Under the pieces are notes generated by a model. The model was given only the letters and a program-made list of their open reading frames with translations. It was not told the DNA's origin and made no database searches. Below are positions 4,563-27,875 of a stretch of DNA of 31,351 bases, in pieces. Position 1 is the stretch's first letter; each line of letters begins with the position of its first letter. The stretch is from a virus, in IMG/VR virus record IMGVR_UViG_3300021197_000414, positions 1 to 31,351 of that record, one strand, 5' to 3'. The translations under genes were made by a program, and so were the position numbers.

Positions 4563-6112
4563 TGGCAAGCATACCAGTCGGTCAAATTATACAAAGATAT
4601 AAATCTGCGAAAGCTAAGAAAGATAACTGGGAATCAGTTTATGAAGATTGTTATCGTTATGCACTACCTAATCGTAATTTATACGAAGGTTATTATGAAG
4701 GTGGGGTTGTTGGTCAAAACAAAATGCCAGATGTATTTGACAGTACCGCTATTGATTCAACACAAAAGTTTGCTAATAGAATACAATCAGGTTTATTTCC
4801 ACCACAAACTAACTGGTGTAAGTTAGAACCAGGCAACGATATACCTGATGAAGCACAGCAAGACGTACAAAAAGTATTAGAAATGTACTCAGATAAAATG
4901 TTTAGTGTTATTCGTAATTCTAATTTTGACTTGGCTATGGGTGAGTTCTTATTAGACTTATGTGTGGGTACAGGAGTGATGCTAATACAACCTGGTGATG
5001 AAGATATGCCTATACGTTTTACTACGATACCAATGTATTTGGTTTGTTTAGAAGAAGGCGCACATGGTCAAGTAGAAAATGTATATCGTAGAATGAGATG
5101 TAGAGCAGAACAAATACAAGTCATGTATCCAGATGCTAAATTAAATACTACATTACAACAATGTGTAACTGACACACCAACTAAAGAAATAGAATTATTA
5201 GAATCTACTATTAAAGATGTTGAAACAGGATTTTATTATTACTGCGTTATCTATGAAAAAGAAAAACACAAGTTAGTTGATAGAAAATTAAATTCTTCTC
5301 CATGGGTGGTGTCAAGATACATGAAAGCAGCGGGTGAAGTGTATGGTCGTGGACCATTAACTGTTGCTATACCTGACATAAAAACTTTAAATAAAGTAAA
5401 AGAATTATTATTAAAGAATGCATCACTTGCAATTGCTGGTGTGTATACCGCAGCAGACGATGGGGTATTAAATCCTAATACAATGGTGTTGAAACCTGGT
5501 GCTATCATACCAGTAGCTAGAAACGGTGGACCACAAGGTGAATCACTAAGACCATTACAGCGTAGTGGGGATCCACAGTTATCACAAATTGTGATTGACC
5601 AATTAGTTATGTCGATTAAAAAAATATTACTGGATGAATCTTTACCAAGAGATGACATGTCAGCACGTAGTGCAACTGAAATACAACAACGTATACAAGA
5701 GTTAGCACAAAATTTAGGTAGTGCGTTTGGTAGATTGATTACTGAAGTGATGACACCTATTATTCAACGTACTTTAACTATCATGGATCAGCAAGGTTTA
5801 ATAGAATTACCATTAAAAGTTAATGGATTAGAGGTAAAAATTACACCAGTCAGTCCGATTGCTATGTCACAGAATACTAACGATGTAAACAATGTAGTAC
5901 AGTTTGCACAAATCGTAGCACAGCTTGGACCAGAAGGTGCAACTGCATTGAAGATTGGTGAGATTACCGATTACATTGCTGAAAAATTAGGGGTGCCAGC
6001 AGCTTTACGCAACAGCCCACAAGAACGTGCTGAAATAATTCAGCAAACTCAAATGATGGCAGAGCAGCAAATGCAACAACAGATGCCTGAGGAACCACCA
6101 ACGGAGGAGTAA
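4562..6112 (+). CDS. Portal (head-tail connector), T7 gp8-like
   Basis: This 516-aa protein would form the ring at the portal vertex through which DNA enters and leaves. The N-terminal WESVYEDCYRYALPNRN motif, the DSTAIDSTQKFANRIQSGLF segment and the DDMSARSATEIQQRIQELAQ helix match T7-like connectors (Head-tail_con family), and length is close to T7 gp8 (536 aa). The C-terminus is Gln/Met-rich and acidic (QQQMPEEPPTEE). The start overlaps the hydrolase stop by one base. It is followed by a Bbp19-like protein and the scaffold, the usual order for this gene. Confidence 0.95.
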   Translation: MASIPVGQIIQRYKSAKAKKDNWESVYEDCYRYALPNRNLYEGYYEGGVVGQNKMPDVFDSTAIDSTQKFANRIQSGLFPPQTNWCKLEPGNDIPDEAQQDVQKVLEMYSDKMFSVIRNSNFDLAMGEFLLDLCVGTGVMLIQPGDEDMPIRFTTIPMYLVCLEEGAHGQVENVYRRMRCRAEQIQVMYPDAKLNTTLQQCVTDTPTKEIELLESTIKDVETGFYYYCVIYEKEKHKLVDRKLNSSPWVVSRYMKAAGEVYGRGPLTVAIPDIKTLNKVKELLLKNASLAIAGVYTAADDGVLNPNTMVLKPGAIIPVARNGGPQGESLRPLQRSGDPQLSQIVIDQLVMSIKKILLDESLPRDDMSARSATEIQQRIQELAQNLGSAFGRLITEVMTPIIQRTLTIMDQQGLIELPLKVNGLEVKITPVSPIAMSQNTNDVNNVVQFAQIVAQLGPEGATALKIGEITDYIAEKLGVPAALRNSPQERAEIIQQTQMMAEQQMQQQMPEEPPTEE

Positions 6113-6113
6113 T

Positions 6114-6374
6114 ATGAGCTGGGATGAATTAGTTTTAGATAAAGAACAAGAGTTAGATTACCCAGACTATGTTGACCCACAAGAGTTAAATCGTTTATAC
6201 TTTAAGGTGTTTACGACTATAGAAGGGCAAAAAGTATTAGAGCATTTACGAGCTATTACGATTGAGCAACCAAGTTTTATACCAGGGGAATCTGCGTCAT
6301 ACGGCTATTGTCGAGAAGGACAAAATTCCATTATTAGAGAAATACAAAAACGCATAGAGAGGGCAAGGGGATGA
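6114..6374 (+). CDS. Bbp19-like small structural protein
   Basis: The protein is 86 aa. The pattern GQKVLEHLRAITIEQPSFIPG followed by YCREGQNSIIREI fits the Bbp19 family of small phage proteins, named after a Bordetella podovirus structural protein, in which a short helix (G-x-x-VLxxL) is followed by an REGxR-type helix. It lies between portal and scaffold, a frequent site for this family. GGAGG upstream of ATG 6114 is a strong ribosome binding site. It overlaps the scaffold gene by 4 bases (ATGA). The exact role is unknown. Confidence 0.65.
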   Translation: MSWDELVLDKEQELDYPDYVDPQELNRLYFKVFTTIEGQKVLEHLRAITIEQPSFIPGESASYGYCREGQNSIIREIQKRIERARG

Positions 6375-18204: not shown

Positions 18205-20583
18205 ATGGCAGATTATGATATAGCAGCAGTAACCAGGAGAGCGGTCTACTCAGGTAGTGCTGGTACTGGACCATACGCATTTAGTTTTGCGTGTCTAGAA
18301 ACCTCAGATATTGCGGTATATAAGGATACTACGTTACTAACAGAAACATCTGACTACACCGTTACATTATCTGCATCAACTGGTACAGGTAGTATTACAC
18401 TAGGTAGTGCTGCTAACTCAAACAATACAATTACCTTAGTAGGTGCTAGAGATTTGGCTAGAACCACAGACTTTGTGACTGCTGGATCATTAACCGCATC
18501 AGCGTTAAATACAGACTTTGATTCTCTTGTGATATTTGCACAACAGTTATCAGAAGAAAATAGTAGAAACTTAAAAGCACCTGTTACAGAAGGTATATCA
18601 GGAACGACTGATATGACTATACCTCCTAAAGCTACCAGGGCAAGCAAAATGTTAGAGTTTGATTCTGATGGAAACCCAGCAGTATCTATACCAGCTACCA
18701 ATTTAGCCACACTTGGAACAATAACAGGCAACATTACAACAGTTGCAGGCATAGCCAGTAATGTAACTACAGTCGCAGGCATTGCATCTAATGTAACTGC
18801 TGTTGCTGGAGATGCAACTGATATAGGCGCTGTTGCTGCCGTAGCTACTGAGATAGGTAGACTAGGCACAAGTGCTGCCGTAGCAGACTTAGCAATATTA
18901 GGCACATCAGCTATTGTAACTGACATGGATTTACTAGCTACTTCTGCCAATGTTGCAGCTATGGGACATTTAGGCACATCAGCTAACGTAACAGCAATGG
19001 GATTATTAGGCACAAGTGCAGTTGTAGCAGACATGGCTCTACTAGGAACAAGTGATGTTGTAGCTGATATGGCTTTACTTGCAACTTCTGACGTTATAGC
19101 TGATATGAATACGTTAGCAACCAGCGATATTGTAAGCGACATTAACACACTTGCGACAAGCGATATAGTATCTGACTTAAATACATTAGCAACTTCTGAT
19201 ATAGTTTCAGACATTAATACGTTAGCCACATCTGATATTGTGTCTGATCTTAATACGTTAGCTACCTCAGATATTGTAAGCGATATTAATACATTAGCTA
19301 CATCTGATATTGTGAGCGACTTAAATACATTAGCAACATCTGATTTTGTATCAGACTTAAACACATTAGCTAGCTCAACTGTAGTAACTAACATTGCTAC
19401 TGTTGCTTCTAATGTAGCAGGAGTTAACAGTTTTGCAGAAAGATATCGTGTTGGTTCTAGTGATCCTACATCATCTTTAGATGAAGGTGATTTATTTTAT
19501 AATAGTTCAGACAATGCAGTTAAATATTATAATGGTAGTGCTTGGGCGTCTATTACTGCTGGTATTGGTAATGTCGTAGAAGATACCACACCACAACTTG
19601 GTGGTAACTTAGCTAGTAATGGAAACGACATAGTTTTTGCAGATGACGACAAGGCTATCTTTGGTTCTGATACTGATTTAACTATTCGTCATAATGGAAC
19701 ACATGGCATAATAGACAACAATACAGGCGATTTGTTTTTACAAAGCGACACAGTTGTAAGGATAGTAAATAGTGCGGCATCAGAAACTGCGGCAAAATTT
19801 TTTGAAGATGGCGCAGTAGAACTGTACCATGATAACAGTAGAAAAATTAAAACAACCAGTTCAGGTGCTGAAATAACAGGTAATGTAGTTCTTTCAGATA
19901 ATGGCAAAGCTATCTTTGGTGCTGGCTCTGATCTACAAATTTTCCATGACGGATCTGATTCTTACGTGAAGGATGCTGGAACAGGAAGGTTGGTTGTGGA
20001 AACTGATGGTACAGATGTTTCTCTAAAGGCTGGGTCAGATAATATGCTCGTGGCAGCTAAAGACGGTGCAGTCACCCTTTATTACGACAACGCAGCTAAA
20101 CTTGCTACATCTAGTACAGGTGTTGATGTAACAGGCGTAATCACCACAGATGGCATGACTACATCTGCTGATGTAAACTTTGGCGATGACGACAAGGCTA
20201 TCTTTGGTGCTGGTAGTGACTTACAGATATATCACGATGGTAGCGACAGCTACATTGCTGAAGGTGGAAGCGGTACTGGAAGTCTTAAAATTAAGGCTAA
20301 CAATCTTCTCGCATATAATAATAGCGACGCACCTTACTTTCAAGGCGTTACTGGTGGAACATTTAGAATATACCACGACGGCAATCAAAAACTTTCTACC
20401 ACAGCCACAGGTGTTGACGTAACAGGTACTCTTAATGCTACAACAGTAGACTTAGGTAACTGGACTATAACTGAATCATCAGGTGTATTATTTTTTGCAA
20501 CATCTGGTACGAATAAAATGAAACTAGATGCTTCTGGTAATCTTACTGTAGTCGGGGACATCACAGCCTTTGGATCAATGTAA
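18205..20583 (+). CDS. Tail fibre with T7-type N-terminus and tandem repeats
   Basis: This 792-aa receptor-binding fibre would attach to the tail through its N-terminus. Residues 1-150 match the T7 fibre N-terminal domain: VTRRAVYSGSAGTGPYAFSF, then DYTVTLSASTGTGSITL and TSALNTDFDSL-like helices ending with ENSRNLKAP. Residues about 220-399 form 15 tandem 12-residue repeats of the form LxTSxxVxDxxx. Residues 480-680 contain three IFGxxxDLxIxHDG modules, common in marine phage fibres. The C-terminus (KLDASGNLTVVGDITAFGS) is also typical of such fibres. The stop overlaps the next ATG by one base. Confidence 0.92.
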   Translation: MADYDIAAVTRRAVYSGSAGTGPYAFSFACLETSDIAVYKDTTLLTETSDYTVTLSASTGTGSITLGSAANSNNTITLVGARDLARTTDFVTAGSLTASALNTDFDSLVIFAQQLSEENSRNLKAPVTEGISGTTDMTIPPKATRASKMLEFDSDGNPAVSIPATNLATLGTITGNITTVAGIASNVTTVAGIASNVTAVAGDATDIGAVAAVATEIGRLGTSAAVADLAILGTSAIVTDMDLLATSANVAAMGHLGTSANVTAMGLLGTSAVVADMALLGTSDVVADMALLATSDVIADMNTLATSDIVSDINTLATSDIVSDLNTLATSDIVSDINTLATSDIVSDLNTLATSDIVSDINTLATSDIVSDLNTLATSDFVSDLNTLASSTVVTNIATVASNVAGVNSFAERYRVGSSDPTSSLDEGDLFYNSSDNAVKYYNGSAWASITAGIGNVVEDTTPQLGGNLASNGNDIVFADDDKAIFGSDTDLTIRHNGTHGIIDNNTGDLFLQSDTVVRIVNSAASETAAKFFEDGAVELYHDNSRKIKTTSSGAEITGNVVLSDNGKAIFGAGSDLQIFHDGSDSYVKDAGTGRLVVETDGTDVSLKAGSDNMLVAAKDGAVTLYYDNAAKLATSSTGVDVTGVITTDGMTTSADVNFGDDDKAIFGAGSDLQIYHDGSDSYIAEGGSGTGSLKIKANNLLAYNNSDAPYFQGVTGGTFRIYHDGNQKLSTTATGVDVTGTLNATTVDLGNWTITESSGVLFFATSGTNKMKLDASGNLTVVGDITAFGSM
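18862..19401 (+). repeat. 36-bp coding tandem repeat in the tail fibre (15 units)
   Basis: Fifteen consecutive 36-base units encode 12-residue repeats in phase with the fibre frame. The first seven are divergent (LGTSAAVADLAI, LGTSAIVTDMDL and so on). Units 8-13 are LATSDIVSDINT and LATSDIVSDLNT in strict alternation. Unit 14 is LATSDFVSDLNT and unit 15 is degenerate. Synonymous codons differ widely between units with identical protein. A long antisense ORF (18354-19394) is a by-product. Confidence 0.9.
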
Positions 20584-25542: not shown

Positions 25543-25600
25543 TCTAGGTTGGTACATAATTTTTTTAGGATTATTTGTAGCTTGGTATTTAGTTCTATGA
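25532..25600 (+). CDS. 22-residue membrane miniprotein
   Basis: The ORF encodes MINNLGWYIIFLGLFVAWYL followed by Val-Leu, almost entirely one hydrophobic helix. The start lies in the 3' end of the preceding gene (AAGATGAATG context, with GGGGAAG at 25520-25526 as ribosome site). The stop overlaps the next start as ATGA (25597-25600). Both junctions look like coupled genes in the rest of the operon, which supports translation. It could modulate the holin. Reality rests on context only. Confidence 0.55.
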   Translation: MINNLGWYIIFLGLFVAWYLVL

Positions 25601-25869
25601 CATTAAAGAAACATCAGAATCCAAAGGGTGGATTGAACGCAGCAGGTCGTAAACATTTTAAACGAACTGAAGGTTCAAACTTGAAAGCTCCAGTCAAGAA
25701 AGGTAAGAATCCAAGACGTGTATCATTTGCTGCACGCTTTGCTGGAATGAAAGGTCCGATGAAAGATGACAAGGGTAGACCAACTCGTAAAGCATTGGCA
25801 CTCAAAGCCTGGGGATTTGGATCAGTTGCAGCAGCAAGCAGTTTTGCAAGGAATAACAAAAAAACTTAG
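25597..25869 (+). CDS. Small basic protein, DUF6321-like
   Basis: The protein is 90 aa. I chose ATG 25597, coupled to the 22-residue peptide through ATGA, rather than ATG 25549, which would overlap that peptide almost fully. The sequence starts MTLKKHQNPKGGLNAAGRK, has LKAPVKKGKNPRRVSFAARF and then GPMKDDKGRPTRKALALKAW, with a strong positive charge. This pattern is the DUF6321 family found in marine phages and phage-like genomes. Function unknown. The charge suggests nucleic acid binding. Confidence 0.75.
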   Translation: MTLKKHQNPKGGLNAAGRKHFKRTEGSNLKAPVKKGKNPRRVSFAARFAGMKGPMKDDKGRPTRKALALKAWGFGSVAAASSFARNNKKT

Positions 25870-25904
25870 CGTCTAACAGGCTCATATGCAGACGTAAAGG
25901 AGGG
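25870..25904 (+). promoter_or_regulatory. Hairpin and strong Shine-Dalgarno before an 8-codon ORF
   Basis: CGTCT (25870-25874) pairs with AGACG (25890-25894) around a 15-base loop. AAAGGAGGG follows at 25896-25904, the strongest Shine-Dalgarno seen in this window, 5 bases (counted from GGAGG) before ATG 25909. The hairpin has no T run, so it is not a terminator. It may control ribosome access to the short ORF and the gene after it. This is inference from layout. Confidence 0.4.
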
Positions 25905-25908
25905 TGGC

Positions 25909-25935
25909 ATGGGTAAGGCAAGGGTAAGTTATTAA
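25909..25935 (+). CDS. Possible leader peptide MGKARVSY
   Basis: An 8-codon ORF begins after the strong ribosome site. Its stop TAA is immediately followed by the ATG of the fusion nuclease gene (TAAATG). Ribosomes could re-initiate there, since the fusion gene has no comparable site of its own. It may be a leader peptide controlling nuclease levels, or a remnant of a longer start. Confidence 0.4.
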   Translation: MGKARVSY

Positions 25936-26595
25936 ATGCCGAAGATGGCTAACAACAAGCGTCTGACAACGATTACGGATGATTACCTACAGAATTGGAA
26001 CCCAGATACCCTAGGTAAGAAGTCAATCTACATTCGTGACACTAAAGTTAGTTGTTTGCTGTGTTGTTTCTCAAGAAAAGGGATGCACTCATGGGCGTAT
26101 GACTATGCTAAAGGGCGAGTACATAAATCAAAAGTGTTTGGGTACTATCCAGGCATGACCATTAAACAAGCAAGGAAGAAAGCATTGGCAATACAAACAG
26201 AAGTGATAGATCAAGACAAAGATTACGATGAAGTGTTTGAGATCCATCGTCATCCATCTTACGTATATTTTTTAGAAAATAAATCAGGGCAAATAAAGAT
26301 TGGTAAGTCTACTAATTGGATGGCACGCATCAAAGAACTAACGGTATCAACCGAAGGAGTTAGGTTGATTGGTATTAGATTAGAATCAAAAACATTTAAT
26401 GAAACTGCTTGTCATCAACTCTACCGTAAGTACAGACAGCAGTCGAACGAGTGGTTTGATGATAAGTCTAATGAAATAAAAAAACTCATAACTGCTGCTG
26501 TAGTATACGGCGAGAAAGATCATATACTATCATCAATCATGGCAGAACAACACGAAAATATTTATGCGACCACAGTCAGCAAAAGCAAAGGGTAG
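25936..26595 (+). CDS. Integrase-type arm DNA-binding domain fused to GIY-YIG nuclease
   Basis: This 219-aa protein is unusual. Residues about 30-92 match the N-terminal arm DNA-binding domain of tyrosine integrases: HSWAYDYAKGRVHKSKVFGY, then YPGMTIKQARKKAL, the expected G-x-YP-x-x-(S/T)-x-x-x-AR pattern. Residues about 107-190 match T5orf172/MUG113-type GIY-YIG domains: YVYFLENKSGQIKIGKST with Tyr109/Tyr111 and K-I-G (121-123), Arg131, Glu156, His160 and EWF (172-174). No tyrosine recombinase core (R...H-x-x-R...Y) is present. The protein may bind specific repeats and nick or cut DNA. It overlaps the next nuclease gene by 32 bases. Confidence 0.7.
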   Translation: MPKMANNKRLTTITDDYLQNWNPDTLGKKSIYIRDTKVSCLLCCFSRKGMHSWAYDYAKGRVHKSKVFGYYPGMTIKQARKKALAIQTEVIDQDKDYDEVFEIHRHPSYVYFLENKSGQIKIGKSTNWMARIKELTVSTEGVRLIGIRLESKTFNETACHQLYRKYRQQSNEWFDDKSNEIKKLITAAVVYGEKDHILSSIMAEQHENIYATTVSKSKG

Positions 26596-26905
26596 AAAAC
26601 TACAGCAATGGGTGCGAGATAAACTCATTGACTTACTTGATGTTCATCCAGAAGACATAGAGTCCAGGAGTATGGGTGCAGGTGGTGAGGATCTCATCAT
26701 GGCTCGTGCTGCTAGACAAAAGTTTCCTTACTCTATTGAGTGTAAGAATGTAGAGAAGTTAAATGTTTGGGAAGCCTACGAACAAGCTAAGGCTAACTGC
26801 GGTGACTACGAACCTCTTGTTGTGATGAAGAAAAATAACAAGAAGCCCTTAGTCGTGATTGATGCAAAGTATTTTATTAAGCTAACTCATCCAACAGATG
26901 TTTGA
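26564..26905 (+). CDS. PD-(D/E)XK-fold endonuclease, resolvase-like
   Basis: This 113-aa protein has a helix KGRKLQQWVRDKLIDLL, then SRSMGAGGEDLIM and SIECKN. Asp43 and Glu59-Cys-Lys61 form the D...E-x-K metal site of small phage nucleases related to Holliday junction resolvases and VRR-type nucleases. Gly-Gly before Asp43 and the KKPLVVIDAKYF strand further support the fold. It may process branched DNA before packaging. It starts inside the fusion-nuclease gene and its 3' end overlaps the convergent exonuclease gene by 29 bases. Confidence 0.75.
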   Translation: MRPQSAKAKGRKLQQWVRDKLIDLLDVHPEDIESRSMGAGGEDLIMARAARQKFPYSIECKNVEKLNVWEAYEQAKANCGDYEPLVVMKKNNKKPLVVIDAKYFIKLTHPTDV

Positions 26906-27875
26906 TACTGACTGACTTAGCTCTGATTTGTCTGGCTGGTTTTGCTTCGACATACTTAGCAGGTTGTGCTTTGTACTGACGGATCGGTCGAGTCAGCCTG
27001 GTCACACCTCCGCTGTGTGCTATTGTACCTACCTCAGCATTGCCTAATGCTTCTATCATCTTCATCTGCAATCGTTCCATATCAGTATCAAGTTCTTTAC
27101 GTTTGTTTAAACAGTCTTCATACTGCTCAACAAAAGTTAACATCGTATTATCTAACTCAACCTTTGGTGTATTGATATCTGAATACTTACCTGCCATGGT
27201 ATCTAAATCATGTGGGGTGTAGTCCGTATCCTCATCAACATGCTGATACAAAGTCAATGACTTTTCTACAATAGTGTCCTGAATTTTTTTATCAGCTTTT
27301 ACCACAAAGACACGCATGTCATTGCCGTTAAACAAGCAACCGATGATACCAAACTGTGCATCAGCTATCATCATCTGTGCTTGCAGTTGTAGGAAACCAC
27401 GACCATAGTCTACGGTCATACACTCGATACTGTCGTACGGCTTGAACTGCATGTTCTTGATCTCAACAGGTACAGGTCCGAGTAATTCTATTGGTTCGTT
27501 ATCTTGTGTGTATACTCTACGATCTTCTGGCACGATAAGTGTTGGTTTGTTTGCATAAAACATACCATCCAATGATGCGTAGATATCCCATGGCTTGCGG
27601 TCTGCTGACATACCTATTTCTTTTGACATCACTTCATCAATCGGATAGTTGATCTTAATATCTAATCTGTCCTCTATCAATTGCATGATAGTTTCTTCTA
27701 ATACATTACCCATATCCATACGTTCCATAACTTTCTTGTCAAAGATTTGTGGTTCTTCTGTGCCATCAATCGCTGCTCTAATTTTTTCTAAAACTTTATG
27801 GGGTCTGTCGTACAGCATTGGCATTAGGCTTGCTGATATCCTATCGTTAGGACTTAGTTTTCCAAAACCTTTCAT
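26877..27875 (-). CDS. YqaJ-like exonuclease (PD-(D/E)XK)
   Basis: This 332-aa protein is the last gene of the leftward operon. Active-site pattern: Glu60 in MGNVLEETI, Asp103 in ASLDGMF, Glu138-Ile-Lys140 in VPVEIKN, and the glutamine-rich QLQAQMMIADAQ helix (163-173), as in YqaJ/RecB-type exonucleases. The C-terminal part has a coiled coil (about 238-270) and a basic tail. It likely resects double-stranded ends for recombination, as lambda exonuclease does, though no annealing partner of the Beta or RecT type was seen in this window. AAGGAG lies upstream of the ATG (plus-strand CTCCTTTT). Confidence 0.8.
   Translation of the reverse strand: MKGFGKLSPNDRISASLMPMLYDRPHKVLEKIRAAIDGTEEPQIFDKKVMERMDMGNVLEETIMQLIEDRLDIKINYPIDEVMSKEIGMSADRKPWDIYASLDGMFYANKPTLIVPEDRRVYTQDNEPIELLGPVPVEIKNMQFKPYDSIECMTVDYGRGFLQLQAQMMIADAQFGIIGCLFNGNDMRVFVVKADKKIQDTIVEKSLTLYQHVDEDTDYTPHDLDTMAGKYSDINTPKVELDNTMLTFVEQYEDCLNKRKELDTDMERLQMKMIEALGNAEVGTIAHSGGVTRLTRPIRQYKAQPAKYVEAKPARQIRAKSVSIKHLLDELA

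Follow-up and report, generated by a model that had tools for sequence, protein, structure and literature searches.

Introduction

The T5orf172 genes of phages are homing endonuclease genes, which are patchily distributed, lie near terminase or replication genes and at the borders of exchanged regions, and have had their DNA-binding domains swapped (PMC10448857). The DNA-binding part was a CapR, DUF723 or DUF4379-type zinc finger in 200 of the 229 surveyed, and RepA_N in a few (PMC10448857). ICP1 Odn (gp88) is a T5orf172 gene turned into an anti-satellite weapon via a domain closely similar to the RepA of the satellite (PMC8263062). With this RepA-type domain Odn cuts satellite origins, and the activity needs a conserved Glu (PMC8263062, PMC10448857). 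In the AP2-HNH (IPA-HNH) homing endonucleases, a small beta-sheet DNA-binding domain is combined with a nuclease (PMC10448857).

The gene described here was found in a window of 31,351 nt of viral DNA (IMG/VR record IMGVR_UViG_3300021197_000414, positions 1 to 31,351; the window refers to this whole stretch). The fusion ORF was confirmed to encode, in one protein, a P4-like integrase arm DNA-binding domain together with a GIY-YIG domain of the T5orf172/MUG113 type. It resembles the T5orf172 homing genes in carrying the nuclease at one end and the DNA-binding domain at the other, in its patchy occurrence, in its location near terminase or replication genes and at exchange borders, and in domain swaps within the gene. 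In contrast to their DNA-binding part, which is almost always a zinc finger, the fusion has one integrase arm domain. Like Odn, it is a chimera in which a T5orf172 nuclease is joined to a DNA-binding domain from a mobile element; however, the RepA-type origin binder of Odn closely resembles its satellite target, whereas no close donor or target was found for the fusion. The arm domains of the P4-like HPI and HAI7 integrases (3jtz, 3ju0, 3rmp) share the fold of residues 12-94 at 16-20% identity, but the fusion has no recombinase core and a nuclease domain is linked instead. The AP2-HNH enzymes are similar in pairing a small beta-sheet domain with a nuclease, yet the nuclease belongs to another family, the domain order is reversed and the structural resemblance is weak (6sy0, Z 4.7).

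No published report of an arm-domain/GIY-YIG fusion was found in the open-access literature. A DNA-binding domain with a T5orf172 nuclease is an already known kind of protein; as far as could be checked, the arm as its targeting domain is new. The fusion probably represents a novel design of nuclease, either of the homing type or directed at rivals.

Results

Domain architecture of the fusion protein

The gene and its two domains have the following positions in the window:

25936..26595, + strand, fusion gene; 219 aa, ATG start, integrase-type arm DNA-binding domain and T5orf172/MUG113 GIY-YIG domain
25969..26217, + strand, arm DNA-binding domain; residues 12-94 (PF13356 at 39-90), HS..DY....HKSKVFG..P.M....AR core
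26260..26490, + strand, T5orf172/MUG113 GIY-YIG domain; residues 109-185, Tyr111, Lys121-Ile-Gly123, Arg131, Glu156, Glu172-x-Phe174

Three lines of evidence, namely sequence profiles, conservation within the family and a structural match, support the architecture of an arm module before a GIY-YIG nuclease without a recombinase core. These three agree with the initial annotation, made from the sequence alone, in which an integrase arm domain fused to a T5orf172/MUG113 GIY-YIG domain had been proposed and the integrase catalytic core had been described as missing. The C-terminal end is the GIY-YIG domain, and the core (PF00589) was found in none of 18 records, namely that of the window and 17 related ones, with all 14 control genomes positive. 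An integrase of the carriers' own, or a temperate lifestyle, was rejected on the same result. In these 18 records, the arm domain was present exactly once in each and T5orf172 was matched at most once in each.

The whole fusion protein had no match among cultured phages at E 0.01, matched no known defence family and no NCBIfam entry, and matched solved structures by sequence at chance level only.

A mini-ORF encoding MGKARVSY (window 25909-25935, ATG at 25909) follows a good ribosome-binding site, and its TAA abuts the ATG of the fusion gene (TAAATG). An equivalent mini-ORF, MGKARESY, has the same arrangement in L002, and in L003 the mini-ORF is fused in frame to the fusion gene. Translational coupling at the TAAATG junction is possible.

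Nuclease domain

With Pfam, T5orf172 (PF10544) was matched at residues 109-185 with 32.2 bits against a cut-off of 20 (E 1.6e-7), and MUG113 (PF13455) at residues 121-185 with 26.6 bits against a cut-off of 22.3. T5orf172 was matched in 18 of the 19 aligned members. Tyr111, KIG 121-123, Ser125, Arg131, Glu156, Glu172 and Phe174 are invariant in 22 members. The positions given beforehand for KIG (121-123), Arg131, Glu156 and EWF (172-174) were right, and KIG, Arg131, Glu156, Glu172 and Phe174 among them proved to be invariant; the catalytic Tyr, Arg and Glu are thus in place as Tyr111, Arg131 and Glu156.

The second Tyr of canonical GIY-YIG domains is replaced by Lys121. The spacing in UvrC is Tyr-10-Tyr-10-Arg, and the Tyr-10-Lys-10-Arg of the fusion fits it. 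Some GIY-YIG homing nucleases, such as I-TevI, double as repressors. The replaced Tyr, as well as the location of the fusion gene at the meeting of two operons in the podovirus lineage, would suit a DNA-binding regulator whose nuclease domain is dead or weak and which acts, for example, on transcription at the convergent operon junction. We consider this very improbable, as the same Lys occurs in the two Vibrio-phage T5orf172 proteins compared, and Tyr111, Arg131 and Glu156 do not vary among the members. Odn, of the same family, also cuts DNA (PMC8263062).

When the nuclease domain was modelled alone (22 rows, pLDDT 87.1), most of the twelve top rows of the structure comparison were GIY-YIG proteins (1ywl, 7wme, Slx1, 1zg2, I-TevI) with low Z values of 3.5-4.2, and nothing significant was obtained with Foldseek. 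The predicted GIY-YIG fold of this half is based mainly on the Pfam matches.

The nearest cultured T5orf172 matches were Vibrio phage proteins with zinc-finger domains, and a terminase gene adjoins in L026. In these Vibrio phages of the Nahant collection (L026 1-918), the zinc-finger T5orf172 gene overlaps the start of the large terminase gene.

Arm domain and its kinship with integrases

In the single protein, Arm-DNA-bind_3 (PF13356) was matched by Pfam at residues 39-90 with 27.4 bits against a cut-off of 27 (E 3.8e-6). As a match barely above the cut-off is thin evidence, the domain was tested across the family, where PF13356 was matched in all 19 aligned members and exceeded the cut-off in 16 of the 18 phage records. 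The invariant columns of the arm half are HS...DY, HKSKVFG and P.M....AR; a few members depart from HKSKVFG at one position, and L243 at more than one.

The AlphaFold2 model of the whole protein was built from a 19-row alignment with a mean pLDDT of 84.8 and a pTM of 0.57, the latter as expected because the protein has two domains. Residues 12-94 of the model superposed on three P4-like integrase arm domains: 3ju0 (Z 11.3, 2.4 A over 89 residues), 3jtz (Z 10.7, 1.6 A over 77 residues) and 3rmp (Z 9.9, 1.9 A over 75 residues). Every other structure had a Z below 5, the next being the AP2 domain 6sy0. The same three were again the top three with Foldseek (E about 1e-3). The arm fold suggested for the N-terminal part was thereby recovered by structure prediction with Z values of 9.9-11.3, but its extent had been placed at about residues 30-92 and is wider in the structure match, residues 12-94.

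Homology of the arm domain to integrase arms is indicated by sequence, independently of the fold match. An arm-only profile matched 63 of 398 Pseudomonadota genomes; most of the matching open frames were about 400-490 aa long, the size of integrases. In L370 and L371, two of the best arm matches, the rest of the protein matches integrase/recombinase families. The nearest arms, L371 and L372, share the GKR..Y.DTK....GT.TF....GRYPD.....AR pattern with the fusion family. The best integrase arm scored only about 35 bits against the fusion-family profile; because of this distance, either the fusion is old or its donor is unsampled. A motif scan of 84,980 GTDB species yielded 22 stretches and no close relative or donor, although distant ones could escape such a pattern scan. 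The arm-profile search matched none of five SAR11 genomes and 4 of 397 Pelagibacteraceae genomes.

A 1.2-Mb Pseudomonadota genome (G762, contigs C34 and C36; L371 1492-2679) encodes two integrases with arms among the closest to the fusion family. These two are candidate kin of the arm-domain donor.

The origin of the arm bears on a reading modelled on Odn, in which the arm domain would steer the nuclease to the attachment-site arms or arm-type sites of a competing integrating element or satellite. The plan is the same, a T5orf172 nuclease combined with a DNA-binding domain taken from a mobile-element protein; tyrosine integrases of cellular genomes are matched by the arm profile, arm domains recognise the arms of att sites, and, with no integrase found in the carrier records, no att site of the carriers themselves is an obvious partner for the arm domain. 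Against this, the Odn domain is 42% identical to its target RepA, whereas here the closest integrase arm reaches only the above 35 bits or so, and the GTDB motif scan gave no relative. The rarity of arm matches in Pelagibacteraceae also speaks against it but is not decisive, since that family may not be the host of the window phage. Such a weapon is possible but unlikely. Its broader form, a phage weapon of a new class, which borrows the att-site recognition domain of integrases to cut satellites, islands or prophages at arm-type sites within the shared cell in abundant ocean bacteria, is held to be more doubtful still.

Carriers and selection

By scanning IMG/VR, the same fusion was found on about 30 marine viral contigs including the window, as the initial annotation had suggested looking for in other phages; 29 loci were obtained first, one divergent member was added later, and some contigs are near-identical to one another. 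Identity of the fusion across these contigs ranges from 39 to 94%. A broken integrase was rejected as an explanation, since the fusion is kept at this identity with intact frames. No internal stop was found in any of 22 aligned members, and the dN/dS of the whole gene against its nearest relatives was 0.11-0.24; therefore the fusion protein has been kept functional.

The carriers fall into two unrelated phage lineages. The window is a podovirus fragment; its large terminase shares 63% identity with the protein of Methylophilales phage MEP301 and 43% with that of a Pelagibacter phage. MEP301 has no such fusion gene. In the second lineage, the DNA polymerase is 72% identical to that of Pelagibacter phage HTVC023P, and the fusion is located immediately before, or close to, a homologue of the HTVC023P small terminase subunit, a position at which HTVC023P itself has no fusion gene. 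Judging by these relatives, the hosts may be Methylophilales and Pelagibacter.

Exchanged cassette

In the window, the fusion gene is part of a cassette:

25597..25869, + strand, DUF6321 gene (PF19846); left boundary of the exchanged cassette, frequent among marine viral contigs
26564..26905, + strand, PDDEXK/RusA-like gene (phrog_244); 32-nt overlap with the fusion gene, right end of the exchanged cassette
25597..26881, unstranded, horizontally exchanged cassette of 1.29 kb; nucleotide identity 89.8% to L001 and 93.7% to L002

The genes flanking the cassette were only 28-50% identical in protein sequence between the window and L001/L002, or unmatched. As the cassette is 90-94% identical in nucleotides amid diverged flanks, the DUF6321-fusion-RusA block was swapped between diverged phages with sharp borders. 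L004 is closer to the window genome-wide (exonuclease 68%, helicase 76%), and its fusion is only 61% identical.

DUF6321 and the RusA-like gene were each confirmed in at least 598 stretches of marine viral contigs, and among the best 80 loci of each the fusion occurred in two already known carrier contigs only. These two genes could supply the homology for cassette exchange. In several carriers, a small HNH-like gene (87 aa; L001 2473-2733) adjoins DUF6321 as a further nuclease gene at the locus.

Empty and occupied sites at the operon junction

The right-hand neighbour of the cassette marks the junction:

26877..27875, - strand, RecE/YqaJ-like exonuclease gene; ends 3' at the convergent junction where some relatives carry the fusion and others lack it

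Relatives for the comparison were gathered by this exonuclease. In L240, the end of the exonuclease directly adjoins a short convergent gene and DUF6321, and the site is empty; in L238, the contig of L006, it is occupied. The alignment of the two breaks at L240 4898/L238 4409 and resumes at L240 4901/L238 5131. The 721-nt insert in L238 contains the fusion gene only and both flanks are continuous, with 71-82% nucleotide identity to L240, the only clean empty allele found. The fusion gene thus behaves as a mobile module, which some related phage genomes carry and others lack at a single site.

Other occupants were also detected. L239 has about 1 kb with a C5-methyltransferase gene (1555-2583) in place of the fusion, and in L008 the fusion lies beside a C5-methyltransferase gene (5237-6211) at the same junction. 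L243 carries a 46% identical fusion (5011-5667) there, in the opposite orientation to DUF6321 and with a short insert in the arm domain. The junction can hold a fusion, a methyltransferase or nothing, so that the point where the two operons meet is a hotspot of gene swapping.

Exchange was also observed inside the gene. L006 and L008 have 98% identical helicases; their arm halves are 70-83% identical in nucleotides and most of the nuclease half 88-95%. The dS was 0.78 in the arm half against 0.23 in the nuclease half, which points to an exchange of the arm half within the gene and not only to selection.

The surroundings of the gene could also suggest an ordinary DNA-metabolism nuclease, which would serve the phage in recombination, replication or packaging alongside the RusA-like gene and the exonuclease, and would be carried along when this module is exchanged. 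The fusion overlaps the PDDEXK/RusA-like gene and faces the exonuclease, a small terminase gene is nearby in the other lineage, the gene is under purifying selection, and Slx1, a GIY-YIG nuclease of branched DNA, is among the closest folds, though within the low Z range given above. But L240, L239, HTVC023P and MEP301 hold the neighbour genes or their kin without the fusion, the RusA-like gene is not beside it in L004, L006, L007 and L008, and a sequence-specific arm-type domain is unexpected in a structure-selective nuclease. We regard this role as decidedly unlikely.

Discussion

On balance, the fusion is more probably than otherwise a free-standing, mobile and site-specific T5orf172 (GIY-YIG) nuclease which acts like a phage homing endonuclease. 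Judged from sequence, it fits the known T5orf172 homing pattern in all the genomic features open to testing. Among the roles offered by the initial annotation, namely a site-specific nicking enzyme, a homing-like nuclease, host-DNA attack or superinfection exclusion, the homing-like nuclease is the one favoured by the presence or absence at one site, the empty allele and the sharp-bordered exchanged cassette.

According to the proposed mechanism, the arm domain would bind a short DNA site, and the tethered GIY-YIG domain would nick or cut close by with Arg131 and a metal held by Glu156. Breaks made at such a cut site in gene-less genomes would be repaired with a co-resident gene-bearing genome as template, and through this repair the fusion gene would spread with its neighbours as a module of 0.7-1.3 kb; cutting would then be the driver of the spread.

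The suggestion that the nuclease is aimed at particular repeats found no support in the sequence: no family of short arm-like repeats stands out across the window, and those repeat families that are large consist of coding repeats within tail genes. The tail-fibre gene (window 18354-19394 and 18863-19251) contains 36-nt tandem coding repeats (SDINTLATSDIV-like), which incidentally create a long open frame of 346 aa on the antisense strand.

Three considerations weigh against homing. Homing genes often decay, yet all 22 members are intact with low dN/dS, which fits a useful function too. The single clean empty allele, that of L240, has flanks that are well short of near-identity to those of the occupied relative. 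In addition, general gene exchange at an operon junction, with no nuclease involved, could yield the same pattern, as the cassette moved with DUF6321 and the RusA-like gene.

The finding extends the sources of targeting domains of phage T5orf172 nucleases beyond zinc fingers and RepA, and provides an example of an integrase arm domain that exists apart from a recombinase. Since the sites bound by arm domains are short and defined, and structures of such domains have been solved, the target of the fusion should be easier to find than those of most homing enzymes. With empty and occupied alleles known from marine phages, either homing or an attack on integrating elements can be put to a direct test. 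The locus also illustrates how individual nuclease genes come to mark the limits of exchanged regions in ocean phages.
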